64,000 nucleotides of DNA, taken from positions 1 through 64,000 of the IMG/VR virus record IMGVR_UViG_3300017917_003859. One strand, written 5' to 3'. A model generated the notes under the pieces. The model was not told the origin of the DNA. It searched no databases and was given only the letters and a program-made list of their open reading frames with translations. This stretch comes from a virus. Position numbers and translations under genes: made by a program. Below, one piece after another: positions 14,823-32,722 of this stretch (within the stretch, counting starts at the first letter, position 1; every line of letters starts with the position of its first letter).

Positions 14823-15266
14823 ATGAAGAAATTAGTTAACGAATTAATTAAGGATATATTACAAGAAGATTGTGGGTGCCAACATGATTCTATGAATTTT
14901 AAAGAAGCATTAGCATCTTTAACTAAATATATGTTGGATCAAGGTTTAAATATTAAACCACTACCTAAACTTAAATTAATTAATAATGATGTTTCTAATG
15001 CTTCAAATATTTTAGGTAAAACAGCATACTATAATCCATCAGATTGTTCTATTACTTTATATACTTTAAATCGTCATCCTAAAGATATATTACGTTCATA
15101 TGCTCATGAAATGATTCATCGTATTCAAGATAATGAAAATAGATTGAATAATGTTAATACTACTAATACAAATGAAGGTGGTGATTTAGATCAATTAGAA
15201 CGCGAAGCATATGAACATGGAAATATGACTTTTAGAAATTGGGAAGACTCAATCAAAAATGTATAA
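14823..15266 (+). CDS. Predicted zinc metallopeptidase with leader helix
   Basis: This 147-residue protein has a zincin motif, HEMIH (His95, Glu96, His99, in YAHEMIHRIQDNE). A downstream acidic stretch (LEREAYEHG, Glu126, Glu128, Glu131) is suitable for the third metal ligand as in gluzincins. The N-terminus KKLVNELIKDILQED is one of the recurring leader helices and ends in an [LI]-x-E tripeptide (LQE), followed by CGC. Removal of the leader would leave a compact small protease. The substrate is unknown. If the leader is a capsid-targeting signal, the enzyme could be packaged and injected to cut a host protein. Metallopeptidase fold is likely; the packaging idea is inference. Confidence 0.72.
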   Translation: MKKLVNELIKDILQEDCGCQHDSMNFKEALASLTKYMLDQGLNIKPLPKLKLINNDVSNASNILGKTAYYNPSDCSITLYTLNRHPKDILRSYAHEMIHRIQDNENRLNNVNTTNTNEGGDLDQLEREAYEHGNMTFRNWEDSIKNV

Positions 15267-15792
15267 ACTTACAGATCTATATAAACAACTTAAAGAAGAA
15301 GAACAAGCATCTCAAGTATCACAATATAAAATATTTTGTGATATGGATGGAGTATTATGTGATTTTGATGGTCGTTTTGAACAATTTTCTGGGATGTCTC
15401 CTAAAGAATATGAATCTAGATATGGTACTAAAAAATTTTGGGAATTAATAGATGATAAAGTAGGATATACATTTTGGTCTAAAATGCCATGGATGAAAGA
15501 TGGAAAACAACTTTGGTCTTATATTAGTAAATATAAACCATCTTTACTTTCAGCCCCATCACAAAAATCATCTTCTCGTTACGGAAAACGTTTATGGGTA
15601 CAAGAAAATTTACCTGGGGTTAAATTAATTCTAGCTAAACGTGAAAATAAACAAGATTATTCTAAATCTAACCATATACTTATTGATGATCGAGAAGATA
15701 ATATCAATGAATGGAATAGTCGTGGAGGAATAGGAATATTACATACATCAACTAATAATACTATTGAACAATTAAAACAACTAGGGCTATGA
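15259..15792 (+). CDS. HAD-type 5'(3')-deoxyribonucleotidase
   Basis: This 177-residue protein is a haloacid-dehalogenase-fold nucleotidase. Motif I is DMDGVLCDFD at residues 28-37 (nucleophile Asp28, general acid Asp30), motif II is near LLSAPSQ, and motif IV is HILIDDRE, the pattern of NT5C-like 5'(3')-deoxyribonucleotidases. It would hydrolyse nucleoside monophosphates and could adjust dNTP pools. The first 17 residues (YKLTDLYKQLKEEEQ) form a helix like the recurring leader, placed ahead of motif I. The gene overlaps the metallopeptidase gene by eight bases and the next gene by four. Confidence 0.82.
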   Translation: MYKLTDLYKQLKEEEQASQVSQYKIFCDMDGVLCDFDGRFEQFSGMSPKEYESRYGTKKFWELIDDKVGYTFWSKMPWMKDGKQLWSYISKYKPSLLSAPSQKSSSRYGKRLWVQENLPGVKLILAKRENKQDYSKSNHILIDDREDNINEWNSRGGIGILHTSTNNTIEQLKQLGL

Positions 15793-16325
15793 GTAAATAT
15801 AAATATAGATTAATTAAAGAACAGGAAGAACCAATGGATGGAGATAATTCTTTAGAAAGAACATTTTATGACATAGTTATTACTCCTGTAAATGCTTCTA
15901 TTGAAGAAACTATTAAAGCATTAGAAAATATAGAAAATTATGGACCATATATTCCTAATTTAAGAAATGTAGCTGTAGATGTAAATAAAGCAGTAGAAGA
16001 TTATTTTGGTCCTAGTCAAAGATTTGAAAAATTAAAAAAGGAAAAAGAACGTGGAAAACCATTTCCTATTAAAACTAAACAAGCAGTAGATGATTTTATT
16101 AAATCTTTAAAATCAAAACCTAATCTTTTAGTTTGGAAAATTGAAAATGATTCTTTAGTTTTTCCTTCAAAAAAGAATCCTTCTAAAAAAGTAACTCAAA
16201 ACATTATATCTACAGTAATGTCAAATGCTGATATAAAATATGATTTAGATGAAAAAGAATCATTAAATGAAAATAAAATTCGTGAAATTATTAAAAATCT
16301 AATCCATAAAAACTATGACAAATAG
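15789..16325 (+). CDS. Unknown protein with C-terminal leader-type helix
   Basis: This 178-residue protein has no recognised family. Its middle region (TFYDIVITPVNASIEETIKA) suggests a small alpha/beta fold. The last 21 residues (LNENKIREIIKNLIHKNYDK) carry the same amphipathic helix seen at the N-terminus of other island proteins, preceded by an LNE tripeptide. Its own N-terminus (YKYRLIKEQEEP) has a weaker version. Having the tag at the C-terminus argues that the helix is a functional module rather than a translation-start artefact. It overlaps the next gene by 11 bases. Confidence 0.6.
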   Translation: MSKYKYRLIKEQEEPMDGDNSLERTFYDIVITPVNASIEETIKALENIENYGPYIPNLRNVAVDVNKAVEDYFGPSQRFEKLKKEKERGKPFPIKTKQAVDDFIKSLKSKPNLLVWKIENDSLVFPSKKNPSKKVTQNIISTVMSNADIKYDLDEKESLNENKIREIIKNLIHKNYDK

Positions 16326-16884
16326 TGTTCTAAAAAAAGATTTCAAATCAGCTGATATTCAACGTCTCCGTAATTTAGTTCAGGGAAAAACTGAAGAAAA
16401 AACTACTGTAGGTGTAGGTTATAATAAAATACAAGAATTTCATGAAGAAGGAGATATATGGGAAGAAGATGGAAGACAATGGACTATCAAAAATGGCATT
16501 AAACAAAATATTACTAAATTAGATAAAGCTAAAAAATTAATAGTTATGCCTCTTTTTTGTCCAAGTTGTAATAATTTGATGAAAAAGAAAAATGATAAAT
16601 TATTTTATATCCAATACCACAGATGTCTTGATTGTCAGGTTGAATTCGAAACTGAATTACGTAGATTAGGATTGTGGGAAGAATATGAAAAAAATATTAT
16701 AAATACTGATCTTGATTATTTGATTGAAGATTATTCTGTATGGGTGGATGAAGTAATCAATGAGTCAAATGAAAGTTTTATAACTGAAGCCGGAGATGTA
16801 GAGCGCTGGGTAGGAACAACAAAGAAAAAATTATTAGAAAATAAGGAAGAAACCATTAAATATTTACAAAACCTAAAAAAATAA
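16315..16884 (+). CDS. Zinc-ribbon protein of T4-like phages
   Basis: This 189-residue protein has a zinc ribbon with two CxxC knuckles: LFCPSCNNL and RCLDCQVEFE (about residues 82-108). Upstream is a conserved-looking segment EEGDIWEEDGRQWTIKNGIK, which resembles uncharacterised proteins of T4-like marine phages. The C-terminal third is acidic and helical. A DNA- or RNA-binding or transcription-related role is possible from the zinc ribbon, but nothing in the sequence fixes it. It overlaps the preceding gene by 11 bases, within a tightly packed operon. Confidence 0.65.
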   Translation: MTNSVLKKDFKSADIQRLRNLVQGKTEEKTTVGVGYNKIQEFHEEGDIWEEDGRQWTIKNGIKQNITKLDKAKKLIVMPLFCPSCNNLMKKKNDKLFYIQYHRCLDCQVEFETELRRLGLWEEYEKNIINTDLDYLIEDYSVWVDEVINESNESFITEAGDVERWVGTTKKKLLENKEETIKYLQNLKK

Positions 16885-16886
16885 CT

Positions 16887-17504
16887 ATGTACTCTTTACT
16901 CATCACTATTTGTACAGCATTAATAACAGCAATTATAGGACCTATAGTAGTAGAATGGGCTAAAACTAAATTTTCATCTAATAAAAAATCGGATTTACTT
17001 GGTGAATCTATTTATGTTGATGAAAAAATAGATAAACAACTTGAAGTAATAATTAATGAATTAAATTGTGATAGAGTATGTATATCTCAATTTCATAATG
17101 GAGGTCATTTTTATCCAACCGGAAAATCTATTAAAAAATTTAGTATTTTTTATGAACGAACTACAGAATATGCTTCTTCAATAAAAGAAACATTTCAAAA
17201 TATTCCTGTATCTTTATTTCCTAAAGTATTCTATATTTTATATACTAATGGTGAATTAAATATACCTATTTGTAAATACAACACAACAGATTGTGGTATA
17301 TTCCAGGTTAATGGAAAAGATTATAAAACTAAATCTATGTATATGTTAGCCATAAAAGATTTAGATGATAATTTTATAGGTACATTAACTATATCCTTTT
17401 ATAATAAAGAAAGTGTACTTACATTAGAAGAATGGGTACTGTTGAGACAAAAAGTTGGTGCTATTGGTACAATTTTAACAGATTATTTACATAATAAAAG
17501 ATAA
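16887..17504 (+). CDS. Membrane-anchored GAF-like domain protein
   Basis: This 205-residue protein has one N-terminal transmembrane segment (LLITICTALITAIIGPIVV, residues 4-22) followed by a soluble domain of about 150 residues with GAF-like layout: CDRVCISQFHNGGHFYPTG, FSIFYERTTEY, then MYMLAIKDLDDNFIGTLTIS. GAF domains bind small ligands or report redox state. The charged linker (KTKFSSNKKSD) predicts a cytoplasmic domain tethered to the host membrane. No output domain is present, so it may act by protein contact. The GAF assignment is by pattern and moderate. It ends the operon; a new promoter-like motif follows. Confidence 0.6.
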   Translation: MYSLLITICTALITAIIGPIVVEWAKTKFSSNKKSDLLGESIYVDEKIDKQLEVIINELNCDRVCISQFHNGGHFYPTGKSIKKFSIFYERTTEYASSIKETFQNIPVSLFPKVFYILYTNGELNIPICKYNTTDCGIFQVNGKDYKTKSMYMLAIKDLDDNFIGTLTISFYNKESVLTLEEWVLLRQKVGAIGTILTDYLHNKR

Positions 17505-17523
17505 ATTTAATTAAATTTCATAA

Positions 17524-17537
17524 TATTTATAATAAAA
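17524..17537 (+). promoter_or_regulatory. Phage promoter-like motif
   Basis: A perfect TATTTATAATAAAA begins 21 bases before the next ATG, in a short A+T-rich gap. Confidence 0.7.
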
Positions 17538-17544
17538 TATCAAA

Positions 17545-17907
17545 ATGAATTCAACAAACATGACTAAATCTGATTTTAAAGCATATCTTCGTGAGATGAT
17601 TTTATATGAAGTTAAAAAAAAGAAAAAAAATAAACCCGAAGATGTAGCTCCTCAAGAAGATGTTGATATCAACATAGAAGCACCAGCGGAAGAAACACCA
17701 ACTGATACTACAACTCCTGAAATTTCTACAGAAGTTGATATAGATCCAAAAGTTAAAGCAATTCAAGATGCTTTAAATAAAGCATTAGCCAACGCTAAAG
17801 CATTAGGTGATGAAAAATTAGTAAATCAAATTGGTAATACTATCACTATGTTAGTTAGAACACAAGTAGTAGGACAGCAAGCTGTTGCTGAAAGTATTAA
17901 AAAATAA
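17545..17907 (+). CDS. Small acidic-linker protein with leader helix
   Basis: This 120-residue protein has a leader-like helix (TKSDFKAYLREMILYEVKKK, residues 7-26) with an LRE tripeptide, then a basic run. A long Pro/Glu/Thr-rich disordered linker follows (about residues 32-67), and then a helical C-terminal domain (KVKAIQDALNKALANAKALG). No known family. A second possible ATG lies five codons in (MTKSD); I keep the first because both fit. It is the first gene after a strong promoter-like motif and abuts the next gene with a one-base overlap. Confidence 0.6.
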   Translation: MNSTNMTKSDFKAYLREMILYEVKKKKKNKPEDVAPQEDVDINIEAPAEETPTDTTTPEISTEVDIDPKVKAIQDALNKALANAKALGDEKLVNQIGNTITMLVRTQVVGQQAVAESIKK

Positions 17908-18401
17908 TGGCACTCACTCCTAGAGAATTAGAATTAAAAAATAAATTATACAACCAGTATAAAAAAAATAAATCTAAATTCATAAAAGATTATGGGAAAG
18001 ATGCTGAACAAGTAATGATAGGGAGAGCAATTAAATTAGCAAAAAAGATGGCGGATCAAGATAATAAAAATAAAATTAAAGAAGCTATACGTAAAGCTTT
18101 ATCTAAACCTTTAGAAGAAGAAATTGACTCTAATTTATTTTTCACTCACCAAAAACCAGCAGCTCCTGTATCTCTTCCTAAACCAAAACCTCATAAAACT
18201 GATAAAGAAAATCCAATGGATATCATAATGTTAGATGTTCCATTAATTATACGTTTATTAGAATATGCTAGAGAAGATGCTAAAGAAGATGTAGATTTAC
18301 ATAATGTAGCTGAAAATTTAATTGAATTATCAAAAAACGGACAGGTACTAAATATGACTGATTATTCAAGCATAGTTTCACCTGATGAAAAAATTGATTA
18401 A
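17907..18401 (+). CDS. Unknown conserved phage protein with internal leader-type helix
   Basis: This 164-residue protein begins with a basic helical region (LYNQYKKNKSKFIKDYGKDA, then IGRAIKLAKKMA) of a type I associate with T4-like marine phages. Residues 54-72 (NKNKIKEAIRKALSKPLEEE) carry an internal copy of the recurring amphipathic helix ending in LEEE. The rest has a Pro-rich linker and an acidic helix (MLDVPLIIRLLEYAREDAKE). Function unknown. A prohead-protease cut after the internal helix would release the C-terminal half, but this is inference. Confidence 0.6.
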   Translation: MALTPRELELKNKLYNQYKKNKSKFIKDYGKDAEQVMIGRAIKLAKKMADQDNKNKIKEAIRKALSKPLEEEIDSNLFFTHQKPAAPVSLPKPKPHKTDKENPMDIIMLDVPLIIRLLEYAREDAKEDVDLHNVAENLIELSKNGQVLNMTDYSSIVSPDEKID

Positions 18402-18403
18402 AA

Positions 18404-18919
18404 ATGACTAGAAACGAATTAAGAGATAAAATAAAATTATTAGTTAAACAAGTATATAAAATTACTAATACTACTAAATCTACCCAAATAGATTTAGATT
18501 CAGCATCTCCTATATCTTTAGACACAGATCGTTTTCCAGTTTTAATTAAATTTCCTACTCTTAAAGATACTATTATCAAATTATTAACAGATCAATATGA
18601 TTTATTTATAAAAGATATTGAATGGGTAGCACCACGTCCAACTACATTTCGTATTATTTTAGCAAATGATCAACCCTTTTATTTAATTTATACTGATAGA
18701 TCATGGATTGGTAAAGTTGAAGGTAAAAAATATTATTTACTTAATTTAAGTGAAGAACAAAATTGTATTGAATCTATTGCTAGAATATTATCATACGGAG
18801 CTAAAATAGAAAAACCAGCAGAAAAAACACCTGCTCCTGAAACTACAACCCCAGAAACACCGGTTGCTCCTGAAACTCCAGTTGCTCCTGAAACACCTGT
18901 TGAAGAAATTCCTAAATAA
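18404..18919 (+). CDS. Unknown protein with leader helix and Pro-Glu-Thr repeat tail
   Basis: This 171-residue protein starts with the recurring amphipathic helix (TRNELRDKIKLLVKQVYK). A predicted alpha/beta domain follows (FPVLIKFPTLKDTIIKLL, RIILANDQPFYLIYTDRS). The C-terminal 35 residues form a low-complexity tail with repeats of APETPV (ETPVAPETPVAPETPVEE), likely an extended linker or spacer. No known family. It starts three bases after the previous stop and is followed by a 37-base gap. Confidence 0.6.
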   Translation: MTRNELRDKIKLLVKQVYKITNTTKSTQIDLDSASPISLDTDRFPVLIKFPTLKDTIIKLLTDQYDLFIKDIEWVAPRPTTFRIILANDQPFYLIYTDRSWIGKVEGKKYYLLNLSEEQNCIESIARILSYGAKIEKPAEKTPAPETTTPETPVAPETPVAPETPVEEIPK

Positions 18920-18956
18920 GGAATTTAATGTTAATTAAAGTTATAAAATATTAAAC

Positions 18957-19811: not shown

Positions 19812-19828
19812 TTCATATATTTATATAC

Positions 19829-21256
19829 ATGAAACATGCAGATCTTATAAAACGTTTAATTAAAGAGGCATTATCTACACCTCCTAAAAAAGATAAATGT
19901 AATTGCGGTTGTCATTCATGTGAAAACGTAGGTAATCCTGGCCCTGTCCTTAATGAAAGTCTTAATAATAGAATTATTATGACTGAAAATATGAAATATC
20001 ATGTTAATAATAAATTAGCATTAACTGAAAATACTTTTAGGTATGGTTCTGATGCTTTTTTAAAATTATGGGCTGAAGCACGTTATTTATATTCTCGTAA
20101 CGCTATTCATGTAAATGATTTAGATAAAGAAATAATTATTGAAACCGATTTAGGTGAATATGGTATATATGAAGGACAAAAAGTACCTTTAGACTTACCT
20201 ATGTTAGAGGAAAAAGAAAATAATTATTATATTATTAAATTTGGATTTAATGATGATGGTGAATATAAAGTAGTAAATTCTAAACCTATATATGCTCAAA
20301 ATGAAGAAGAAGCTGCATATAAGCTTAGAGATCAATTCGAATCATATGAAGGTATTTCCATTGAAATAATCTCAATTGAAAGATCAGGTTTAAATGAAGA
20401 TCAAAAAGTACCTTTAGATTTAGTATTATTAGAAGATGAAGACATAATTGGTGGAAAAAAAGATATTGAATATGCTGAAATTATTCCATTTAGAGCTTTA
20501 AGTAATTTAACTAAAACTGTTGGGGAAGAAATTGAAATATTAAAAGCTGAAGAAGAAAAACGAGGTATAGATTTCACTGGAGATTTACAATTATTAGATA
20601 AAGAAGATCAAAAGATAGTTCAAAAACGACTAAGAATGCTAAATCTACTTAAAGATTTAGATAGATTGTTTTCTTTTGAAAATAAGAATATACATTATAA
20701 TACTGTATTAGGTATATTAAAAAAATATAATGCTTTAGATTTATTATCTTCTGTGGGTGCTGGACTTAATGAAATAGAATTAGGTAATAAAGAAGATATT
20801 GAGATGGGAATAATGAGTTCATATACCCCCACCATAAATGATTTATATAAAAAAGCTAAAACTGGTGATAAACAAGCTACTAAAATTTATGATGAATTAA
20901 TACAAGCTATTACTCCTGAAGAAAAACAACAAATATTAAATAAATATTTCCCTGAAAAACTAAACGAATCTACAGATAAAAAACACCCAGCATTAAATAA
21001 ACCTAAACGCGGTGGATCTAAAAAATTCTATGTGTATGTTCGTGACCCTAAAACTAAACGCATTAAAAAAGTTAGCTTTGGAGATACTACAGGTCTTTCA
21101 GCTAAAATAAACAATCCTAAAGCACGCCAAGCATTTGCAAAAAGACATGATTGTGCTAACAAAAAAGATAAAACAAAAGCATCATATTGGTCTTGTAGGC
21201 TTCCAAGGTACGCATCTTTATTAGGTTTAAAGTCAACATTTAGTGGTTATTGGTAA
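19829..21256 (+). CDS. Modular tagged protein with repeats and Cys-rich basic C-terminal domain
   Basis: This 475-residue protein looks like a chain of modules. Residues 1-16 are a leader helix (ADLIKRLIKEALS), and residues 24-31 are a Cys cluster (CNCGCHSC). LNE or LTE tripeptides at 41-43, 65-67 and 188-190 mark module borders. The segment GQKVPLDLPMLEE (about 116-128) recurs as DQKVPLDLVLLED (about 191-203), an internal duplication. The C-terminal 95 residues (KPKRGGSKKFYVYVRDPKTK, then RHDCANKKDKTKASYWSCRL) form a basic, Cys-containing domain common in T4-like phage proteins, function unknown. The layout suits a precursor cut by the prohead protease, which is inference. Confidence 0.65.
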   Translation: MKHADLIKRLIKEALSTPPKKDKCNCGCHSCENVGNPGPVLNESLNNRIIMTENMKYHVNNKLALTENTFRYGSDAFLKLWAEARYLYSRNAIHVNDLDKEIIIETDLGEYGIYEGQKVPLDLPMLEEKENNYYIIKFGFNDDGEYKVVNSKPIYAQNEEEAAYKLRDQFESYEGISIEIISIERSGLNEDQKVPLDLVLLEDEDIIGGKKDIEYAEIIPFRALSNLTKTVGEEIEILKAEEEKRGIDFTGDLQLLDKEDQKIVQKRLRMLNLLKDLDRLFSFENKNIHYNTVLGILKKYNALDLLSSVGAGLNEIELGNKEDIEMGIMSSYTPTINDLYKKAKTGDKQATKIYDELIQAITPEEKQQILNKYFPEKLNESTDKKHPALNKPKRGGSKKFYVYVRDPKTKRIKKVSFGDTTGLSAKINNPKARQAFAKRHDCANKKDKTKASYWSCRLPRYASLLGLKSTFSGYW

Positions 21257-21267: not shown

Positions 21268-21633
21268 ATGGAAAATTTTTCAAAACTTATATCTTATCTT
21301 TTGCATTCAAGAACACAAGCTCATGTGTATCATTTGCAAACTCCATCATTTGCTGCTCATAAAGCATTAAATGAATACTACGATGAAATTGTAGATATTA
21401 CTGATGGTTTAGTTGAATCATATCAAGGCAAATATGGTATTATAATGGATTATACTAATTTTACTTTAATGCAGTATCAAAGTTGTGAAGCAATTCAAGA
21501 ATATTTTAGAGCATTGAATACTACTGTTGAAATGTTACGTCAAGATATTCCTGATTCATATTTACAAAATCAAATTGATAGTGTTGTTGAATTAATTCAA
21601 TCTACATTATATAAACTTAAATACTTAAAATAA
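21268..21633 (+). CDS. Ferritin-like four-helix-bundle protein
   Basis: This 121-residue protein is almost entirely helical and resembles a Dps/ferritin-like fold: AHVYHLQTPSFAAHKALNEY followed by YDEIVDITDGLVESYQGKYG (about residues 18-56). The His and acidic residues are spaced as in the ferroxidase-type H-x(6-12)-H-x-x-x-x-x-Y-x-x-x-x-D arrangement. Similar short proteins occur in T4-like phages without a defined function. If real, it could bind iron or protect DNA, and a head-packaged form would be attractive. It lacks the leader helix. It overlaps the next gene by one base. Confidence 0.55.
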   Translation: MENFSKLISYLLHSRTQAHVYHLQTPSFAAHKALNEYYDEIVDITDGLVESYQGKYGIIMDYTNFTLMQYQSCEAIQEYFRALNTTVEMLRQDIPDSYLQNQIDSVVELIQSTLYKLKYLK

Positions 21634-22007
21634 TGAATAGTAAACTTAAACAAATAATTAGAGAAGAAATACGTAAAATTTTACGTGAAGGGTCTGAGTC
21701 TAAACTATATAAAATTGAAGGTTTACTTGTATCAGATAATAATAAAAAAACCCAATCTCAATTACTTTCAGATATTCGTGCTATAACTGGTGTTACTACT
21801 GTAGATGCCCAAGAATATACTCCTCGTTTACCTAAACCTGATCGTTCATATAATAGATTAACTGTTAAAATAGATCCATATCCATATTTAAAAAATAGTA
21901 ATTTTGATATAGATACAATTAAAATGATTATTGATAATATTAATAAAATTAAAGGAGTAATTAAGTTTAAAGTTGACAATCCACAATTGATTAATATAGG
22001 GATATAA
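21633..22007 (+). CDS. Small tagged protein with ferredoxin-like fold
   Basis: This 124-residue protein opens with one of the clearest leader helices (NSKLKQIIREEIRKILREG) ending in LRE. The remaining 100 residues suggest a beta-alpha-beta ferredoxin-like domain: LLSDIRAITGVTTVDAQEYT, YNRLTVKIDPYPYL, then IDNINKIKGVIKFKV. No catalytic motif is visible. Similar domains in other proteins serve ligand binding or protein contact. The domain begins straight after the putative cleavage point. Overlaps by one base with both neighbours. Confidence 0.62.
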   Translation: MNSKLKQIIREEIRKILREGSESKLYKIEGLLVSDNNKKTQSQLLSDIRAITGVTTVDAQEYTPRLPKPDRSYNRLTVKIDPYPYLKNSNFDIDTIKMIIDNINKIKGVIKFKVDNPQLINIGI

Positions 22008-22870
22008 TGAATCTTATTGATATACTTAAACAACTCCTCCAAGAAAAAGCAGATCGTTGTAAACGTATTGCTGATCGCAAATACGATAAACCATCTGCTT
22101 ATAAGTCAGGAGCAATTGTTAGATGTCGTAAAGGAAATATTTGGAAAGATATAAAAGAAGATAAAGAAGAATTTCAAAATAAAGCTTTAGATAAAATAAA
22201 TAAAGTTGGTGGATTTAATAATTTACCTGATATTGATAAATTAGCTTTACTTGGTGGTTCTGGTGATGCATTGTTAAAAAATTTAAATTTAGGAAAAATT
22301 TTTAAAGAAAACGGAGGCACATTCGGTAAATTAGAAATAAAAATTAAAGTTAAAGATAAAAACAATCAACCAATTAAACATAGATTTAGTCAAGAATTTG
22401 CTGGTAAAGAAGGTTATTTATTTCCTTATATTAATTATGATGATGAAAATCAACCTTATGTTATAGTAAGATTTGATGAATTTGCTAGTGACCCTAATCT
22501 TAAAGGTGGTGGAAATTACAAAGAATTACCAATAATGTTAGGTAATATGTATCCAATTGATTACGATAAAATAAAAAGTGATTTTGTCCAATATCAAAAT
22601 AAAGTAGATTTTGAAAGAAATGAATTTTTAAAATCATTTGGGCTTGATGATTTAGATGAAGGTGAATCACTTCGCTCCTGGTTTAAACGTCAAGGTCCTA
22701 AAGGTAAAGAAGGTGGATGGGTAGATTGTAATGCACCTGATGGAAAAGGTGGATATAAAGCATGTGGTCGTAAAGAAGGCGAAAAACGAGCTAAATATCC
22801 TTCATGTCGTCCTACACCTTCACAATGTAAATCGCCTGGCAAAGGCAAAAAATGGGGTAAAACAAAATAA
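22007..22870 (+). CDS. Tagged protein with Cys/basic modules at both ends
   Basis: This 287-residue protein starts with a leader helix (NLIDILKQLLQEK, LQE tripeptide), directly followed by a basic module DRCKRIADRKYDKPSAYKSG then AIVRCRKGNIWKD. The C-terminal 65 residues are basic and Cys/Gly-rich (SLRSWFKRQGPKGKEGGWVD, then CRPTPSQCKSPGKGKK), an uncharacterised domain that I associate with T4-like marine phages. The middle is a mixed alpha/beta region (KLEIKIKVKDKNNQPIKHRF). The very basic ends fit a nucleic-acid-binding protein. Function unknown. One-base overlaps on both sides. Confidence 0.62.
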   Translation: MNLIDILKQLLQEKADRCKRIADRKYDKPSAYKSGAIVRCRKGNIWKDIKEDKEEFQNKALDKINKVGGFNNLPDIDKLALLGGSGDALLKNLNLGKIFKENGGTFGKLEIKIKVKDKNNQPIKHRFSQEFAGKEGYLFPYINYDDENQPYVIVRFDEFASDPNLKGGGNYKELPIMLGNMYPIDYDKIKSDFVQYQNKVDFERNEFLKSFGLDDLDEGESLRSWFKRQGPKGKEGGWVDCNAPDGKGGYKACGRKEGEKRAKYPSCRPTPSQCKSPGKGKKWGKTK

Positions 22871-24333: not shown

Positions 24334-24587
24334 AAAAATTTTGGTCAATGTTTGATGATAACAATACAGTAAATGAAAAAGCTGTTATTGGATTTGGTGC
24401 ATTCGTAGTCATGATTATGTTTGCAATAGTAGATGTTACTACTGGTATTTTAAATAAACCTTTACTTGTTAATGAGTTTATATTTGATTCATTTAAATTA
24501 TTAACAATTGCATGTTTTGGCATTGCATCTGTGGACAAATGGATTAATAAGAAACATAACTCAGAATCAGAAACGGAAGAAAAATGA
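24330..24587 (+). CDS. Small two-segment membrane protein, holin candidate 2
   Basis: This 85-residue protein has two hydrophobic segments, AVIGFGAFVVMIMFAIVDVT (about residues 18-37) and FDSFKLLTIACFGIASVDKW (about 52-71), with a charged C-terminus (NKKHNSESETEEK). Size and topology suit a class II holin. It overlaps the lipoprotein gene and the next gene by four bases each, so it is translated as part of the lysis cassette. Which of the two small membrane proteins is the holin cannot be decided from sequence. Confidence 0.6.
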   Translation: MKKFWSMFDDNNTVNEKAVIGFGAFVVMIMFAIVDVTTGILNKPLLVNEFIFDSFKLLTIACFGIASVDKWINKKHNSESETEEK

Positions 24588-25357
24588 TTAAATTATTAGA
24601 TATATTATTTGAATTAGAACTTACAGATCACTATAAAGATCGAAAAGTTGATAGAATTGATAATATAAAAAAAGTCATAGTTCCTAAAGAAGCTTTGGGT
24701 GATTTTACTTTAGAACAAATTCAACAACCTCTTATAAAAGAAATTCAAAAAGGAATTTTTACTAAATTAAAAACATTAGAAGCTCAAGATGTTCCTTTAT
24801 CTCAAGGATATAATATTACTTATAAATTTTTTACTCCTGTACTAGAAGCTAATAATACTCGATATCCTATTACTATTGTATCTGATGCCGGGAAAGGAAA
24901 ATTTTATTATGTTATAATTCATAATAATTTTCTCATAACATTGGTATTGTCTGGTTCTGATGATCTTTATAAAGATACAATTAATCATTTAGAAAGAAAA
25001 AAGAAAGACATTCCTGTAAAAGTACTTGAATTTGAAGAATCAACATATCCAATCAATTTAAATAAATTAATGGGTATAGAAATAGCTAAACCCGAAAAAA
25101 TTAAAGAAAAAGATTTACCATACAAAATTAGAACAGACTATAGGATAGGAGCAGACTTCAAACATGATACATATGGTACTGGTAAAATAATAACTACATC
25201 CTCAGGCAATAGAGGTTTAGCGGATTCTAGAGGAATGTTAAATTGGGTTGAAGTAGATTTTGGAAAACCTTACATTTCTGGTGGAAAAATGCTTAAAACT
25301 AGAAAAATACCTAATGTATATTCAACTATATATTTTGATAAACAATTGAAAAGCTAA
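24584..25357 (+). CDS. Tagged protein of unknown function
   Basis: This 257-residue protein begins with a short leader-type helix (IKLLDILFELELTD) resembling that of the kinase-like gene at 25633. The body is mixed alpha/beta, with FYYVIIHNNFLITLVLSGSD in the middle. The C-terminal 75 residues contain YRIGADFKHDTYGTGKIITT and NWVEVDFGKPYISGGK, which look like a small beta-barrel (SH3- or Tudor-like) module. No family recognised. It overlaps the holin candidate by four bases but is probably an accessory rather than a lysis gene. Confidence 0.6.
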   Translation: MIKLLDILFELELTDHYKDRKVDRIDNIKKVIVPKEALGDFTLEQIQQPLIKEIQKGIFTKLKTLEAQDVPLSQGYNITYKFFTPVLEANNTRYPITIVSDAGKGKFYYVIIHNNFLITLVLSGSDDLYKDTINHLERKKKDIPVKVLEFEESTYPINLNKLMGIEIAKPEKIKEKDLPYKIRTDYRIGADFKHDTYGTGKIITTSSGNRGLADSRGMLNWVEVDFGKPYISGGKMLKTRKIPNVYSTIYFDKQLKS

Positions 25358-25358: not shown

Positions 25359-25640
25359 ATGAAAAAAGAATTTAACATAACTGAGTGGATACTCAAAAAT
25401 AAATTAAACGAGCATAATGAAGAAGGTGAATATCCTCCTTATATGTATTCTCCAATAGGCTTTAGCTGTGCTGTTTGTAAATATCATTATATGGAAGATG
25501 GTAAACATATGTGTTCAAATAAAAAATATCAAGAATACAAAGGTACTTCTGAATTAGTAGATGATGAAGGAAATCAAATTAAAGATCCTTCAAAATGGTG
25601 TTCTAATTGGTTTTTGCCTAAAGAAGAAGAAAATGATTAA
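25359..25640 (+). CDS. Small four-cysteine protein, HiPIP-like
   Basis: This 93-residue protein has four cysteines placed as Cys37-x2-Cys40, Cys52 and Cys81 (FSCAVCKYH, GKHMCSN, SKWCSNWF). The pattern, with the last Cys next to Trp, resembles high-potential iron-sulfur proteins, but a zinc-binding role is equally possible. The N-terminus (NITEWILKNKLNEHNEEGE) is a leader-type helix ending in an LNE tripeptide. It has no signal peptide. The stop overlaps the start of the kinase-like gene by eight bases. Confidence 0.55.
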   Translation: MKKEFNITEWILKNKLNEHNEEGEYPPYMYSPIGFSCAVCKYHYMEDGKHMCSNKKYQEYKGTSELVDDEGNQIKDPSKWCSNWFLPKEEEND

Positions 25641-26229
25641 ACTTATAGATATATTAAAAGAAATTTTTGTATCTGGTAAAGAACCTATAGGACAAGGTTC
25701 ACAACATGTTGTTTACCCTTACTCAAAAGATCCTAACAAAGTAATAAAAACATTTGATCCAAGTGAAGGAGAATCTATAAACATTGAACAAATAGATACG
25801 TTTCAACAATATCCTAATATATTTCCTATAGTTTATAAAGTAACAGACAAATACGCTGTTTTAGAAAAACTAGATGTAGACCAGGCAGTTGCAGAATTAG
25901 AAAAACTAAATGTAGAATTTTCTAATATAAAACAAAAAAGTAATGAAAAAAGAAAATATTCAATTCTTTTAGATGATATAATGGAAGATGATAATTTACA
26001 ATATGATGATTTCATATATAAATTGTATTATTTAATAAAAAATAATCCTTCTTCTTTAAAATCTGAATTAAATACCTTGTATTCATTAACTCAAAATCCT
26101 AACTTGCTTAAAAAATGGATAGACTTTTTACTTCAAATTGTATCAATTTTTGGTAAAAAAGATTTAGATATCCATGCTGAGCAATTTGGCTACACACCAG
26201 AAGGACAAATAAAATTATTAGACATTTAA
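25633..26229 (+). CDS. Protein-kinase-like protein with leader helix
   Basis: This 198-residue protein has hallmarks of a small protein-kinase-like fold: a Gly-rich loop PIGQGSQHVVYPY (residues 19-30), the Lys of strand 3 in KVIKTF (Lys39), a hinge-like strand KYAVLEKLD (residues 73-81), and a catalytic-loop-like motif DLDIHAEQFG (178-186) followed by the metal-binding strand GQIKLLDI. The order mimics D-x-H-x-x-(N/Q)-x-G ... LLD of aminoglycoside/lipopolysaccharide-type kinases. I chose the ATG at 25633 because it gives the leader IKLIDILKEIFVSG; an upstream in-frame ATG at 25561 would add 24 residues lying wholly in the preceding gene. Whether it is active is unknown. Confidence 0.62.
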   Translation: MIKLIDILKEIFVSGKEPIGQGSQHVVYPYSKDPNKVIKTFDPSEGESINIEQIDTFQQYPNIFPIVYKVTDKYAVLEKLDVDQAVAELEKLNVEFSNIKQKSNEKRKYSILLDDIMEDDNLQYDDFIYKLYYLIKNNPSSLKSELNTLYSLTQNPNLLKKWIDFLLQIVSIFGKKDLDIHAEQFGYTPEGQIKLLDI

Positions 26230-26489
26230 TGACCCCATACACTGACATAGAAGTTACAGACAAATATATCATTCGTGAATTTAACGAAAATATAGATCCA
26301 ATTGAACTTATGTGGCATCGTGATAATGAAGATCGTACATTAGAAATTATAGGAGAAACAGATTGGAAATTCCAATTTGATGATAAATTGCCAATTTTGT
26401 TAGAAAATCATATATTTATAAAAAAACACGAATGGCATCGTGTTATTAAAGGTACAGGAACACTTAAATTAAAAATATATAAAAAATGA
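26229..26489 (+). CDS. Small cupin-like protein
   Basis: This 86-residue protein looks like a compact cupin or double-stranded beta-helix: LMWHRDNEDRTLEIIGE, then WKFQFDDKLPILLENHIFIK and HEWHRVIKGTGTLKLKIYKK. The two His motifs (WHRD, WHRV) flank strands in the way expected for metal ligands. Substrate and role are unknown; I associate similar short proteins with T4-like phages. It overlaps the kinase-like gene by one base and the following tagged protein by four bases. Confidence 0.55.
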   Translation: MTPYTDIEVTDKYIIREFNENIDPIELMWHRDNEDRTLEIIGETDWKFQFDDKLPILLENHIFIKKHEWHRVIKGTGTLKLKIYKK

Positions 26490-27448
26490 ATAATTCAAAA
26501 CTAATACAACTAATCCGCGAATCAATCAATGATTATATTCGTGAAATTGATGAAGCAGGTAATGTTGCTGCTTTAGAAGCAAAAATGGGTAAAACTAAAG
26601 AAGCTATTGATCTTCGTGAAAAGAAAATGAACATGGATGGCTTAGATGAAGCATACCATGATATGCTTGATAAAGGTAAAATGAAAGAACTTAGCAATGA
26701 AGTTAAAGCATTGAAAAAAAGTTTAGCTAAATATGAAAAACAATTAGATAAACTTAAATCAAAATCTGAAAAAAGCGAAAAAGTAGAAGATACTGAAGAA
26801 AAAGAAATTGTTGATGAAGTAAATATCGATGAAAATTTTCCTGAAAATGGTCCACAATTAGAAGAAATTGCTTTAGAAGATATTAAAATAAATGAATCAT
26901 TTCTTTATATGCAAAAACTAGCAGGTGTTCTTTCAGAAAAAGAATATAACGAAAAACTAGAAGAAGCTCGTTTTAAAAAAGGAACAGATATTGGTAAAAA
27001 AGGTAAAGGATTTGCTAAAGTAGCTAAAGCTGCTGCTAAAGAATACGGTTCAAAAGAAGCTGGACAAAAAGTTGCTGGTGCTATTTTAAAAAAAGTAGTT
27101 AAAAATAAACCTAAAAGCTTAAAAGAAGAAGTATTAGCTTTATTTGAAAATGAAGTTGGTGGTGATAATGATAAAGCATTAGGAATATTATTTCATCCAA
27201 ATGATGATATGGAAGAAGCAAATGAGACACCATATGTTTGGGATCATAACGCTTATGAAAATCTTGTTAAAAGTATGGGATATGAAGATTATGAAGATGT
27301 AGCAGGAGAAATGACACATTATTTTGCACCTGGAGATAATGATGAGATGAGAGTAATGAGAAATTTGATAGGTAATCCTAATTTACAACCAACTGATCTT
27401 ACTATAGGAATGTATAAAAAAGCTATAAGAAGTGAGTACCCTGATTAA
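26486..27448 (+). CDS. Tagged internal-protein candidate with scaffold-like motif
   Basis: This 320-residue protein has an N-terminal leader helix (NNSKLIQLIRESINDYIREI, LRE/IRE-type tripeptides), then a Lys/Glu-rich coiled coil (about residues 60-105). At 136-147 it has INESFLYMQKLAGV, matching the C-terminal motif of the scaffold protein (NDAFARMRELAGL at 41874-41910). After LEEA at 158-161 comes a very basic, Ala/Gly/Lys-rich stretch (KKGKGFAKVAKAAAKEYGSK), then an acidic C-terminus. Cuts at the [LI]-x-E tripeptides would free a basic DNA-binding peptide, as for T4 internal proteins. The resemblance is seen in sequence; packaging and cleavage are inferred. Confidence 0.65.
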   Translation: MNNSKLIQLIRESINDYIREIDEAGNVAALEAKMGKTKEAIDLREKKMNMDGLDEAYHDMLDKGKMKELSNEVKALKKSLAKYEKQLDKLKSKSEKSEKVEDTEEKEIVDEVNIDENFPENGPQLEEIALEDIKINESFLYMQKLAGVLSEKEYNEKLEEARFKKGTDIGKKGKGFAKVAKAAAKEYGSKEAGQKVAGAILKKVVKNKPKSLKEEVLALFENEVGGDNDKALGILFHPNDDMEEANETPYVWDHNAYENLVKSMGYEDYEDVAGEMTHYFAPGDNDEMRVMRNLIGNPNLQPTDLTIGMYKKAIRSEYPD

Positions 27449-27464
27449 TATTTAAATTTTTATA

Positions 27465-27511: not shown

Positions 27512-27544
27512 GGCCTAATCTTAAAGATTGGGCCTCTTTAATTT
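27512..27544 (+). terminator. Rho-independent terminator
   Basis: GGCCTAATC and GATTGGGCC (27512-27520 and 27526-27534) pair with one G-U, loop TTAAA, followed by TCTTTAATTT. It closes the long operon that ends with the tagged protein at 26486-27448. Confidence 0.65.
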
Positions 27545-27567
27545 GGTTTACTTAATAAAATAACTTA

Positions 27568-27581
27568 TATTTATCAAAAAT
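27568..27581 (+). promoter_or_regulatory. Weak phage promoter-like motif
   Basis: TATTTATCAAAAAT shares the first half of the TATTTATAATAAA motif and begins 21 bases before the next ATG, immediately downstream of a terminator. The position supports promoter function although the match is partial. Confidence 0.4.
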
Positions 27582-27588
27582 AAAAGTT

Positions 27589-28062: not shown

Positions 28063-28075
28063 TGGGATTTTACAA

Positions 28076-28089
28076 TATGTATAATAAAA
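28076..28089 (+). promoter_or_regulatory. Phage promoter-like motif
   Basis: TATGTATAATAAAA (one mismatch to the recurrent motif) starts 18 bases before the ATG of the GIY-YIG endonuclease, in the short gap after the previous gene. Confidence 0.55.
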
Positions 28090-28093
28090 TAGT

Positions 28094-28711: not shown

Positions 28712-28712
28712 T

Positions 28713-30020
28713 ATGAAATACACAAAGAAAATCGTAATTGTAGGAAGTGGAGTAGCTGGTATTAGTGCTGCTTTAAAATTAGTAGACAATAATTATCCTG
28801 GAGAACTTATTACTATAATTGATAAAGGTAAAGATCCTTACACTCGTAAACCTGAAGAAGTAATGACAGGTTTTGCAGGAGCTGGAGGATTCTCAGACGG
28901 CAAATTAACATATCATACCGCAATTGGGGGTCAATTATCAAAATATTGTGGCGAAGAAAAAGCATATAATTTGATGGACCAAGCTATTGAAATGTGGAAA
29001 CGTTTTCACCCTGATCCCTCTAAAATTATGTACTCAAACCCAGAATCAGAACCAGACTTTATTAAACCATACTTTGGTCTTCGTTTATTCCCAGTATACC
29101 ACATTGGTACAGATTATTTACACGAAATAGGAAAACGTTGGTATGATTATTTAGTTGATAAAGGTGTTAAATTTAGTTGGAATGTAGAAGTATCTGATAT
29201 TCTTTTTAAAGAAAATTTAGTATGTTTAAAACATACATCTAAAGAAGATTGGATTTTTTACGATGAACTTATCTTTGCTGTAGGCAAATCAGGTATTGAC
29301 TTTGCCCAAAAACTATCAGACGATTATAAACTACCAACCGAACCTAAATCAGTTCAAATTGGAGTGAGATTTGAAAGCCCACAAAAATATTTTCAAAAAT
29401 TAATAGATGTATCTTATGATTTTAAATTATATCAAAAATTTGATAATGTATCATTACGTTCATTCTGTACTAACAATAATGCAGCTTATGTAGCTGTTGA
29501 AGAAACTTATGGAGATATTAGCTATAATGGTCATGCTAAGAAAGGTGAAGAATTTAGAAACGATATGACCAACTTTGGTATTCTAATGGAAATTAAAGGT
29601 ATTGAAAATCCATTTGAGTGGTCACGTGATGTAGTTAAATTATGTCAAGCTAATAAAACAGGATTATATTATTCACCTAATATGACTCGTAAACCAGGTT
29701 TAACATCAGAAGGAACAACTGTATCATCTTGGGAAATATCTGAGTATTCATTAAATAATGTTAGGAGTGCTATGGGTGGTTATTTTAAATATATTGAAGA
29801 TTTCATTGATCAAATGAATAAAGTATTTGAATTTGGTGATGACTATGGAATCTATATACCTGAGGTAAAATACTTAAGTCCTGAACCATTAGTAAATTAT
29901 AATGATCTATCGCTAACTGAATATCCAAATGTGCATTTTGTAGGAGATGCATTAAGTGCTAGAGGTATTACTGTAAGTGGAGCACACGGTATTTATGTAG
30001 CAGAATCTCTTTTAAAATAA
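28713..30020 (+). CDS. FAD-dependent dehydrogenase (COG2509-like)
   Basis: This 435-residue flavoprotein begins with a Rossmann dinucleotide fold, KIVIVGSGVAGISAALKLVD, the GxGxxG FAD-binding motif. Next come GAGGFSDGKLTYHTAIGG (substrate side) and a closing FAD motif near the C-terminus (YPNVHFVGDALSARGITVSG, then AHGIYVAESLL). This order matches the uncharacterised FAD-dependent dehydrogenase group related to geranylgeranyl-reductase-like enzymes (COG2509). I start at 28713 (MKYTKKIVIV); an in-frame ATG at 28686 would overlap the endonuclease gene. Such an enzyme is unusual in a phage and is probably a captured metabolic gene. Substrate unknown. Confidence 0.78.
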   Translation: MKYTKKIVIVGSGVAGISAALKLVDNNYPGELITIIDKGKDPYTRKPEEVMTGFAGAGGFSDGKLTYHTAIGGQLSKYCGEEKAYNLMDQAIEMWKRFHPDPSKIMYSNPESEPDFIKPYFGLRLFPVYHIGTDYLHEIGKRWYDYLVDKGVKFSWNVEVSDILFKENLVCLKHTSKEDWIFYDELIFAVGKSGIDFAQKLSDDYKLPTEPKSVQIGVRFESPQKYFQKLIDVSYDFKLYQKFDNVSLRSFCTNNNAAYVAVEETYGDISYNGHAKKGEEFRNDMTNFGILMEIKGIENPFEWSRDVVKLCQANKTGLYYSPNMTRKPGLTSEGTTVSSWEISEYSLNNVRSAMGGYFKYIEDFIDQMNKVFEFGDDYGIYIPEVKYLSPEPLVNYNDLSLTEYPNVHFVGDALSARGITVSGAHGIYVAESLLK

Positions 30021-30048
30021 TAATATTTATTTCCATAACCTAAACATT

Positions 30049-30090
30049 ATGGAAACCCAAGACTACCCAGACTTTATTGAAAATTATTAA
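30049..30090 (+). CDS. Possible 13-residue mini-ORF
   Basis: A 14-codon reading frame (METQDYPDFIENY plus stop) lies in the otherwise gene-free 115-base gap, 26 bases after a TATTTATTTCC sequence that partly matches the promoter motif. It could be a leader peptide or a chance ORF. Little supports translation. Confidence 0.15.
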   Translation: METQDYPDFIENY

Positions 30091-30108
30091 TTTTGTTTAG
30101 TTTTGTAA

Positions 30109-30122
30109 TATTTATAATAAAA
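30109..30122 (+). promoter_or_regulatory. Phage promoter-like motif
   Basis: A perfect TATTTATAATAAAA begins 27 bases before the next ATG. A possible host-type promoter overlaps just upstream (TTG at 30077-30079, 18 bases, TAGTTTTG at 30098-30105), so this gene might be read both early and late. Confidence 0.7.
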
Positions 30123-30135
30123 ATAATTAAAAATA

Positions 30136-30975
30136 ATGAACAAACTAAGAAATATTATTCGTGAAATAGTAGAAGCCGAATTAAATGAAATGGCTAGAAT
30201 ATCTACTAACATTACAATTGGAGATACTGAAAAATTAGCAGCTGCTAAAGAATTATACTCTGGCACTTGGATTGGAGATATGATTAAATTTGTTGAAGAA
30301 GCTGGAGAAAAAGGTATTCCCCAACCTGAATTAGCTAAAAAATTAGGAAAATCAGGTATGCAATCTATTAATCCAAAAATTCGTGATTTTGTAGAAGCCA
30401 ACATTTTCACCAAAGGTGAGTTATCTGTACCTAAAAAGGAAAAACCAGAATCAAGTGGTGTTAAAGGACGCCCAACATCAGAAAAAACATTGATTGCTAA
30501 AGCTGTTAATTCTAAATTAGAAGCTGATACTAATTATAAACCTACAGAAGATGAATTAGCGACATTAGGTCCTGAATTTATTGAAAAATTAAGAATGCGT
30601 GTTAAAGGTTTATTAAAACGTGGTCGTCCATTATCTCCTTCTAAAGCTAAAGATGGCATGACTGCTACTCCAAATCCTGTAGATAATGAAAAAGATACAA
30701 ATATGGATGGTGTTGTTGATGATGAAGATTTAGATGAATTTCTTGAAGAATCAAAATCATTAAATGAATCATTAAAAAATGACGATTTGATATATAATAG
30801 AATGTTAACAATTGATCAAGAACAGTTGGTATCATCAATATTAAATTTTGCTGAAACAAATCCTAAAATTAAATTAGTAGATTATTTAAATTCTGAATGG
30901 GGTTATGATGATGAAGATAAATCATTAAATGAATCATTTATTCGTATGCAAAAAATTGCAGGAATAGTTAAATAA
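30136..30975 (+). CDS. Tagged winged-helix protein with scaffold-like C-terminal motif
   Basis: This 279-residue protein has a leader helix (NKLRNIIREIVEAELNEMA) ending in LNE. A probable winged-helix domain follows: KLAAAKELYSGTWIGDMIKF, then EKGIPQPELAKKLGKSG and INPKIRDFVEAN. A basic Lys/Arg stretch (KGLLKRGRPLSPSKAKDG) and an EF-hand-like loop (DTNMDGVVDDEDLD) come next. The C-terminus (SLNESFIRMQKIAGIVK) matches the scaffold C-terminal motif. The first 100 residues are paralogous to 31850-32722. I infer a packaged DNA-binding internal protein. It has its own promoter motif and terminator. Confidence 0.68.
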   Translation: MNKLRNIIREIVEAELNEMARISTNITIGDTEKLAAAKELYSGTWIGDMIKFVEEAGEKGIPQPELAKKLGKSGMQSINPKIRDFVEANIFTKGELSVPKKEKPESSGVKGRPTSEKTLIAKAVNSKLEADTNYKPTEDELATLGPEFIEKLRMRVKGLLKRGRPLSPSKAKDGMTATPNPVDNEKDTNMDGVVDDEDLDEFLEESKSLNESLKNDDLIYNRMLTIDQEQLVSSILNFAETNPKIKLVDYLNSEWGYDDEDKSLNESFIRMQKIAGIVK

Positions 30976-30997
30976 ATATTTAATATAATTTTTTAAG

Positions 30998-31024
30998 AAG
31001 GCTTGGATTACCAAGCCTTTTTTG
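30998..31024 (+). terminator. Rho-independent terminator
   Basis: A perfect nine-base stem (AAGGCTTGG / CCAAGCCTT, 30998-31006 and 31011-31019), loop ATTA and a T-tract follow the winged-helix gene. It overlaps the region just before the small gene at 31052, which argues against any start upstream of 31052. Confidence 0.85.
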
Positions 31025-31051
31025 TTATTTTTACATTATAAATTATACAAT

Positions 31052-31273
31052 ATGGAATCTATCAAAAAAATTAAATCCCCAGACGGTACCATTCGTTATA
31101 TTAAAAATAGTAAACTCCATAACCCTGACGGGCCAGCACTAATTCATCCTGATGGTAAAGAGGAATATTATTTAAATGGTATTTTTTACACTAAAGATCA
31201 ACATAAAAAAGTTAAAAAAGATAGCACTGGGTTACCATTCTATAAAACATCTAGTGGAAAAATGAGACATTAA
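31052..31273 (+). CDS. Small protein with MORN-like repeat
   Basis: This 73-residue protein contains LHNPDGPALIHPDGKEEYYL followed by NGIFYTKDQ, similar to repeated DGPA-x-dG-x-x-YYLNG units in phage and bacterial proteins (MORN-like beta hairpins). The start at 31052 is chosen because an earlier in-frame TTG at 31022 lies in the terminator. Function unknown. Confidence 0.55.
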   Translation: MESIKKIKSPDGTIRYIKNSKLHNPDGPALIHPDGKEEYYLNGIFYTKDQHKKVKKDSTGLPFYKTSSGKMRH

Positions 31274-31297
31274 AATTAATAATAAAATAAATAAATT

Positions 31298-31828
31298 ATG
31301 CGTATAGGTTTTACTGGAACTATGTCATGTGGGAAAACCACACTTGTTAACTCACTCAAAGAACTCCCAGAATTTAAAAATTATGATTTTGCTACAGAAC
31401 GTAGTAAATACTTACGTGATTTAGGTATTCCATTGAATACCGATAGTACTTTAAAAGGTCAAACAATATTCCTTGCTGAACGAGCTAGTGAATTAATTAA
31501 ACATAATATATTAACTGATAGAACAGTTATAGATGTTATAGCATTTACATTAAATGCCCAATCAATAGATAAAATTGATAAAAATAATTTTGAATACTTT
31601 GCATCATCGTTCATACCAGAATATGATTGGATATTTTATGTAAGCCCAGCTGGGGTAGAACTAGAAGACAATAATGTTCGTACTACTGATTCTGATTATA
31701 GAACTCAAATAGATACTACTATAAAATATTTATGTTCTCAATATCTTTATAAAATTAAAAATTTTGGAATTATATCGGGAACTACTGAGAATAGAATAAA
31801 TCAAATAAAATCTTATTTAAATTTATAA
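31298..31828 (+). CDS. P-loop ATPase/kinase (AAA_28, NadR-like)
   Basis: This 176-residue protein has a Walker A motif at its N-terminus, GFTGTMSCGKTTLVNSL (GTMSCGKT at residues 6-13). Further features are TERSKYLRDLGIPLN, LTDRTVIDVIAFTLNAQSID (Asp as Walker B-like acid), DWIFYVSPAG and the lid segment ELEDNNVRTTDSDYR. This layout matches the AAA_28/NadR-type kinase group common in phages, which phosphorylates small molecules such as nucleosides or cofactors. The substrate cannot be read from sequence. It lacks the leader helix and is followed directly by a promoter-like motif. Confidence 0.78.
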   Translation: MRIGFTGTMSCGKTTLVNSLKELPEFKNYDFATERSKYLRDLGIPLNTDSTLKGQTIFLAERASELIKHNILTDRTVIDVIAFTLNAQSIDKIDKNNFEYFASSFIPEYDWIFYVSPAGVELEDNNVRTTDSDYRTQIDTTIKYLCSQYLYKIKNFGIISGTTENRINQIKSYLNL

Positions 31829-31842
31829 TATTTATAATAAAA
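31829..31842 (+). promoter_or_regulatory. Phage promoter-like motif
   Basis: A perfect TATTTATAATAAAA begins 21 bases before the next ATG, immediately after the kinase stop codon. Confidence 0.7.
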
Positions 31843-31849
31843 CCTTATA

Positions 31850-32722
31850 ATGAAACGTAAAGATTTATATCAATACATCCGCCAAGAAATAATCAATGAA
31901 TTATCTGAAACTACATACGCTGGCAAAGACTCAGTACAAAAAATTCAGAAAGACCCTAAATTTAATACATTAAAGTCTGATGCTAAAGCTAATGCTATTA
32001 GTGATTTAAAAGCAGGAGGTGATGTAGAGTTAGAAGAAATGGCTCGTACCCCAAATAATATCAAACTTGGAGACCCAGCCAAAATAGCACTAGCACGAAA
32101 ATTATATGCTGGTACTTGGAAAGAAGATTTATTAAATGTTGTAGAAAAAGCAGGTGAAGAAGGAATTTCTCAACTAGAATTAGCTAAAGCTGTAGGTAAA
32201 TCTAGCCAACCAGCAATTAATCCATCTGTAAATGAATTTCTTAAAATCGGAGCGTTTGCTCTAGTAAAATCATCAATATCACCTACAGTAGAACCTACTC
32301 CAATTGAAGAACCAGAATTGGAATTGGAACCAGAAATTGAGCCTGAAAAAGTAGAACCGGCCGATGAAGATGAAGAAGATGTTGAAGTAAAAGATGATTG
32401 GGAAAAATCGGAAGAGGAAGAAGAACCAGCAGAAGAAGAACCTAAAACAGCTGATATAAAAGCAGATGATAAAGAAATTGAAAAAATCTCAGGTGGTTCA
32501 ACTTATGCCCAAAAGTTATCTTCTGAAGATGAAGAAAAATATAATAAACTTAAGAAAGGTATAGAAAATAAAGTTAATAAGTTATCACAAATGTCTAAAG
32601 ACAATCGTGAAGCTTCTGATGATCTTAAGATTTTAAAACAACTAATTGCTAGAGATGATGTTAAAAAATTATTTAAAGCAAAGGGTGTAAGTTTAAAAGA
32701 CCTTACTTCAAGCATTTTCTAA
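31850..32722 (+). CDS. Tagged winged-helix paralog with acidic middle
   Basis: This 290-residue protein starts with a leader helix (KRKDLYQYIRQEIINELSE, LSE tripeptide), then a 40-residue spacer. LEEMARTPNNIKLGD then begins a winged-helix domain (ARKLYAGTWKEDLLNVVEKA, EEGISQLELAKAVGKS) paralogous to 30136-30975, where LNEMARIS stands at the same point. A long acidic Glu/Pro region (about residues 143-205) and a basic helical C-terminus follow. The conserved L-x-E/M-A-R boundary in both paralogs marks a likely cleavage point. DNA binding is inferred from the fold. It is followed by a membrane protein gene. Confidence 0.65.
   Translation: MKRKDLYQYIRQEIINELSETTYAGKDSVQKIQKDPKFNTLKSDAKANAISDLKAGGDVELEEMARTPNNIKLGDPAKIALARKLYAGTWKEDLLNVVEKAGEEGISQLELAKAVGKSSQPAINPSVNEFLKIGAFALVKSSISPTVEPTPIEEPELELEPEIEPEKVEPADEDEEDVEVKDDWEKSEEEEEPAEEEPKTADIKADDKEIEKISGGSTYAQKLSSEDEEKYNKLKKGIENKVNKLSQMSKDNREASDDLKILKQLIARDDVKKLFKAKGVSLKDLTSSIF

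Follow-up and report, generated by a model that had tools for sequence, protein, structure and literature searches.

We found that a T4-like phage, like many of its relatives, encodes dozens of proteins with unrelated bodies that carry one of a few short, interchangeable leaders, and these leaders probably (we put the probability at about 0.8) act as capsid-targeting sequences, which would mimic core proteins, undergo cleavage by the S77 protease and bring in cargo for injection. The DNA analysed, here called the window, comprises bases 1-64,000 of a virus record of 155,027 bases. It contains a head module of T4 type (TerL 33326, portal 34908, protease 40077, scaffold 40886 and major capsid protein 41962, genes being named by their first position), and the closest isolate in the phage collection was Flavobacterium phage immuto, with a portal identity of 60.7%. 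The phage appears to be a T4-like virus of aquatic Bacteroidota, its host being assigned from sequence. A Bacteroidota host is also indicated by a large protein (45283-47997) that combines PKD domains with a type IX secretion signal of the CHU_C type (E = 1.4e-14); this phage product is apparently destined for secretion by the host.

A preliminary description of this DNA had reported a tag at several gene starts. All the starts that it named exist as starts of open reading frames except 25633, an internal methionine of the frame 25561-26229, which is likely the true start because homologues begin at that methionine. The copies that it described at the C-termini of 15789 and 38438 and within 37653 are present as well. 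It had also placed the tags in an accessory island; tagged genes do occur there, but they are found at 82, 94, 99.7, 106.7 and 122-125 kb of the record too.

The strict motif L..[LI][IL][RK][EQ].[IL] was searched for in all 228 genes called on the 155-kb record. It matched six times, always within residues 1-30, and not once in the ~41,600 remaining residues, whereas shuffled N-termini gave a mean of 0.07 matching genes (maximum 3 of 2000). A relaxed motif gave 10 matches versus 0.47 in shuffles. In 80 related loci, 23 copies of the strict motif lay within residues 1-30, as compared with 3 in 190,000 internal residues. Leader profiles A, B and C were then built from relatives and run on the phage's own genome together with decoys. 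Profile A called eight genes (99725, 94154, 124302, 21633, 26486, 122765, 124603 and 30136) and profile B four (25633, 106662, 82056 and 24584), and no decoy scored equally. Profile A left 14823, 19829 and 31850 uncalled, the tags of which rest on comparison with homologues, and the leader of 22007 scored at decoy level. The sequence check proposed in the preliminary description, a profile search with a test for enrichment over shuffles, set the tags apart from chance, which is opposite to one of the outcomes that it had named as refuting its reading.

The single tag pattern initially claimed gave way to several leader types. Relatives use at least three interchangeable leaders, namely A (MKKSELKQIIKEEIxKVLNE), B (MIKLIDILKE, 10 residues) and C (MKKQILSEEFxRMQKLAGIITE), A and C being about 20-25 residues long; phage immuto has a fourth type, FDLKKFLVENKLT. 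Leader A was present in at least 119 viral stretches, as compared with 0 for a codon-scrambled A pattern, and leader B also in at least 119. The exact peptide MQKLAGIITE was found in 117 viral stretches and was N-terminal in 83 of 90 readings. Across genomes of 84,980 prokaryote species, leader A occurred in only 2 contigs of one MAG, both of which carry genes like those of tagged phages. The leaders are phage-specific. As queries in tblastn against phages, leaders of 20-24 residues were too short for sensitivity. Recent copying of a leader cassette was considered and rejected, since leader codons within a contig showed only a mild excess of identity (0.74 identical versus 0.63 expected). The features of the window are listed in Table 1.

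Table 1. Tagged genes and head genes of the window. Cargo denotes a predicted role; leaders end at the putative cleavage site.
Feature	Coordinates	Strand	Leader, motif or match
Putative HExxH metallopeptidase-like cargo	14823..15266	+	leader MKKLVNELIKDILQE, 14823-14867
Putative NT5C 5'(3')-deoxyribonucleotidase cargo	15259..15792	+	B-like leader MYKLTDLYKQLKE, 15259-15297; Pfam NT5C E = 4.8e-6
Protein with C-terminal A-like helix after LNE	15789..16325	+	helix 16272-16322
Putative tagged cargo	19829..21256	+	leader MKHADLIKRLIKE, 19829-19867; several internal LNE/ITE/LTE sites
Putative tagged cargo	21633..22007	+	A leader MNSKLKQIIREEIRKILRE, 21633-21689; profile A 28.1 bits
Putative DUF5872-like cargo	22007..22870	+	leader MNLIDILKQLLQE, 22007-22045; Pfam DUF5872 E = 6e-4, below its cut-off
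Putative tagged cargo	24584..25357	+	B leader MIKLLDILFE, 24584-24613; profile B 12.9 bits
Possible type D leader (tentative)	25359..25640	+	MKKEFNITEWILKNKLNE, 25359-25412; resembles FDLKKFLVENKLT leaders of immuto
Putative minimal kinase-fold cargo	25633..26229	+	B leader MIKLIDILKE, 25633-25662; profile B 18.1 bits
Tagged protein	26486..27448	+	A leader 26486-26554; internal C motif INESFLYMQKLAGV, 26891-26938; profiles A 27.9, C 25.0 bits
Tagged protein	30136..30975	+	A leader MNKLRNIIREIVEAELNE, 30136-30189; C-terminal C motif SFIRMQKIAGIVK, 30928-30972
Paralogue of 30136 with different leader	31850..32722	+	leader MKRKDLYQYIRQEIINELSE, 31850-31909; homologue comparison
Putative prohead core protein (gp67/68 position)	37653..38441	+	internal A-like helix ~37932-37967
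Putative prohead core protein (gp68 position)	38438..40075	+	ends in A element ESKLRSIIRNIIKEELK, 40022-40072
Prohead protease, gp21 family (Peptidase_S77)	40077..40682	+	Pfam E = 1.7e-29; phrog_207 E = 1.4e-57
Prohead scaffold (gp22 position)	40886..41920	+	C-terminal C-like motif DAFARMRELAGLHKK, 41873-41917
Major capsid protein	41962..43677	+	phrog_138 E = 2e-68

The leader has a sharp end. Only the columns after residue 13 of leader A are informative, because residues 1-13 were fixed by the search pattern. Among 104 bodies from different clusters, the information content fell from 1.59 bits at residue 20 (E) to 0.35 at residue 21 and 0.15 at residue 22. A [LI]xE site was present at residues 14-24 in 80% of the A leaders (about 20% lacking one) versus 27% after shuffling, and leaders of different length within one contig mostly still ended in LNE, LTE or LLNE. 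As judged from these alignments, leader conservation stops exactly at L/I-x-E, the cleavage motif of T4 gp21. The major capsid protein 41962 has a likely propeptide end of its own at NQAKQLVVE/A (the slash marking the putative cut), found at the same place in immuto and Mel-JY01.

The S77 protease was present in 18 of 20 large tagged contigs; the other two are fragments in which gp23 was likewise not found. It was also present in all 6 control contigs of at least 89 kb (some matches being weak or partial) and, among contigs of 40-70 kb, in 8 of 20 tagged versus 2 of 12 control contigs. We rejected its co-occurrence with leaders as proof of targeting: S77 is frequent in large viral contigs, controls included, and the association therefore discriminates poorly.

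The bodies behind the leaders are diverse. The 341 bodies examined fell into 203 clusters, the set varying between relatives, and 9 clusters occurred with more than one leader type. Pfam and PHROGs searches on 110 bodies revealed no dominant family, most being unknown. In the window, metallopeptidase-like, NT5C and kinase-fold bodies bear out the earlier claim of unrelated domains behind the tag. Four window families (14823, 15259, 21633 and 22007) change leader among relatives. Thus, the body of 14823 stands behind the B leader MIDLTILLNE in one homologue (L180) and that of 15259 behind MIKLLDILKE in another (L345); two homologues of 21633 (L388 and L409) have B leaders, and in homologues of 22007 the leader varies in front of a conserved KADRC/KEDRC start. 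Behind either A or B, proteins of ADP-ribosyltransferase-like type have the junction LNE or ITE/GKQVGTLYHFT in common. Homologues of 19829 retain an L-I-K-E helix, and both tags of 30136 are conserved in three relatives (L014, L021 and L036). The first 70 residues of 19829-21256 hold many LNE/ITE/LTE sites, as if for multiple cuts.

Structure models were in line with enzymatic cargo. The model of 82056-82604, a leader B protein of the same genome (pLDDT 78.6), matched tRNA 2'-phosphotransferase (E = 7.8e-5) and DarT (~1e-3), both NAD-dependent ADP-ribosyltransferase folds, and this protein is predicted to be cargo of that fold. The Foldseek matches listed for the model of 25633 (pLDDT 79.6) were kinases or kinase-like phosphotransferases, including aminoglycoside phosphotransferases (best E = 8.5e-4). 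The N-terminal extension of NT5C was found in four marine T4-like phages (the window phage, immuto, HTVC008M and Melnitz). In most other phages checked, NT5C starts at or near the domain (for ORM_20 and ME3 the annotated start is uncertain); several phages with unextended NT5C also encode S77. A separate cluster of 24 members (L206, L356 and others) is leucine-rich-repeat-like (ITSLPxxL); leader B precedes most of these proteins, of which a single contig can hold as many as 3.

The same elements recur in the head genes. The A element was present in 19 of 38 homologues of 38438 versus 1 of 9238 other ORFs, and in some relatives the homologue of 37653 is a shorter stand-alone protein that starts with an A-like helix. 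Near the C-terminus of the scaffold, the C-like motif R[MW]xxLA was present in 26 of 40 homologues; profile C, when run on the window, left the scaffold motif uncalled, this copy being degenerate (MRELAG for MQKLAG). The scaffold also holds 22 [LI]xE sites versus 13 after shuffling.

We found, among published work, no virion proteome of a phage with leader A, B or C. Mass spectrometry of S-CREM2 virions detected a SAM hydrolase, an APH-like kinase, a cytidylyltransferase and a Cas9-like nuclease (PMC10665884), and all four carry T4-like leaders (MKDFDSFLEE, VKRFDAFLTE, MKNFSSFLTE and LRFASFMAE), which that paper does not mention. With a motif derived from T4 internal proteins, though after these sequences had been seen, detection extended to 6 of the 7 non-structural proteins that have a T4-type leader versus 19 of the 177 that lack one (p = 2.3e-5). 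In S-SCSM1, where the motif was fixed beforehand, there were only two cases, of which one was detected (p = 0.15, not significant), an NMNAT that begins MKSFLQFLKE/A. The papers on both phages leave contamination as a possibility (PMC10665884, PMC9602691), and for S-CREM1 the accessible text reports only 14 virion proteins. A T4-type leader thus predicts virion presence in S-CREM2, which supports the role of T4-type leaders and not directly that of A, B and C. The virion kinases, NMNAT and other enzymes of S-CREM2 and S-SCSM1 are similar in class to the cargo predicted here, but their leaders (MKNFSSFLTE, MKDFDSFLEE, MKSFLQFLKE) have the form F-x-x-F-L-x-E, differing from those of the tagged phages.

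We propose that, during head assembly, cargo would dock on the prohead core through its leaders by their imitation of short helical stretches of the core proteins, leader A imitating those of the gp67/68-position proteins 37653 and 38438 and leader C the scaffold C-terminus. The S77 protease would cleave after the terminal L/I-x-E and release the mature cargo within the head; scaffold and leader peptides would exit, DNA would then be packaged, and the cargo would be injected with it. The injected set would comprise proteins of ADP-ribosyltransferase fold and kinase fold, a nucleotidase and a metallopeptidase. We infer this sequence for the present phage, from docking by mimicry through cleavage, packaging and injection to effector roles. 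Capsid targeting of T4 type, the reading already put forward, appears the best supported by the S77 protease, the L/I-x-E end, the leader swaps, the core resemblance and the S-CREM2 data. We give even odds to a broader idea, a modular cargo-loading code in which distinct address tags, derived from scaffold and core proteins of the phage itself, are interchangeable and work at either end of the cargo, so that a gene gaining a tag becomes an injected effector.

We considered the possibility that the tagged proteins are themselves parts of the prohead core, which would join it via the tag, shape the head, be cut and be expelled rather than delivered. The presence of the same elements in core proteins fits this view, as do 26486, 19829 and 30136, in which several tags or cut sites occur but no enzyme domain was recognised. 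Yet enzymes or enzyme folds (NT5C, ADP-ribosyltransferase, kinase) occur among the bodies, the cargo set varies across relatives and leader-bearing enzymes were detected in purified S-CREM2 virions, which makes this explanation unlikely. Less probable still is recruitment by the leader to some other destination, such as a membrane, a site of replication or a partner protein that the tagged proteins have in common; the L-x-E end would then be incidental. That the leaders are short predicted amphipathic helices fits this reading; however, conservation stops at L-x-E despite varying leader length, the leaders resemble core proteins and leaders are linked to virions in S-CREM2. Finally, amphipathic helices arising by chance in an A+T-rich, Lys/Glu-rich proteome do yield look-alikes. 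The N-terminus of TerL (33326-34897), MSQDLKQIIREEY, resembles leader A and was discarded as a false positive, being probably part of that protein's own fold; ORF 3-368 has a similar amphipathic N-terminus, but also a conserved orthologue in immuto (81525) adjoining baseplate genes, and was likewise set aside. Shuffles, decoys and scrambled codons did not reproduce the tags or their position specificity, and we regard a chance origin as refuted by these controls.

The capsid-targeting leaders of T4 are 10-19 residues long. T4 IPI, IPII, IPIII and Alt resemble the tagged proteins in having a short N-terminal leader that ends in L/I-x-E, unrelated bodies and a gp21-family protease. Leader B has, by eye, the same 10-residue layout as MKTYQEFIAE and the gp24 N-terminus MAKINELLRE, whereas A and C show no resemblance to the T4 sequence. 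The first 10 residues of IPIII suffice to direct it into the head, gp21 cleaves after L/I-x-E and Alt is a packaged ADP-ribosyltransferase (PMC9026906), to which the ADP-ribosyltransferase-fold cargo is akin; the T-even internal proteins, of which at least ten are reported, have only the leader in common, and Ip1-3 inhibit type IV restriction enzymes (PMC12373910). The T-even internal proteins are a precedent for tagged cargo. Unlike T4, the tagged phages have several leader types side by side, tags that are also C-terminal or internal, a resemblance to core proteins and a far larger set of bodies. The inner body and ejection proteins of phiKZ and SPN3US, and MuF-fused or other head-packaged effectors, are alike in forming large packaged sets with propeptides cut after Glu (PMC9026906, PMC9503650); the proteins differ, phiKZ cuts at S/A-x-E, and the accessible parts of these sources describe no short interchangeable leader. 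Head-packaged ADP-ribosyltransferases have been predicted earlier from gene context (PMC9503650). In the open-access literature (subscription papers and most preprints lying outside this scope), we found no description of leaders A-C or of their core resemblance.

The leaders offer a sequence rule for spotting head-packaged proteins among uncharacterised genes of aquatic T4-like phages and a candidate answer to why cyanophage virions hold kinases and NMNAT. They would also open up a sizeable reservoir of candidates for effectors that act early and for anti-defence proteins, and make cargo loading via scaffold-protein mimicry a testable mechanism.

Two virion-detected proteins, S-SCSM1 ORF97 (L525) and S-CREM2 gp160 (L518), have an N-terminal helix followed by EM-x-A-x-GA-x-GFTG. 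Their N-terminus resembles part of 37653, namely its A-like helix and its EMSATGAG stretch, and the helix plus EM-x-A-x-GA shared by the three is possibly an old core module.
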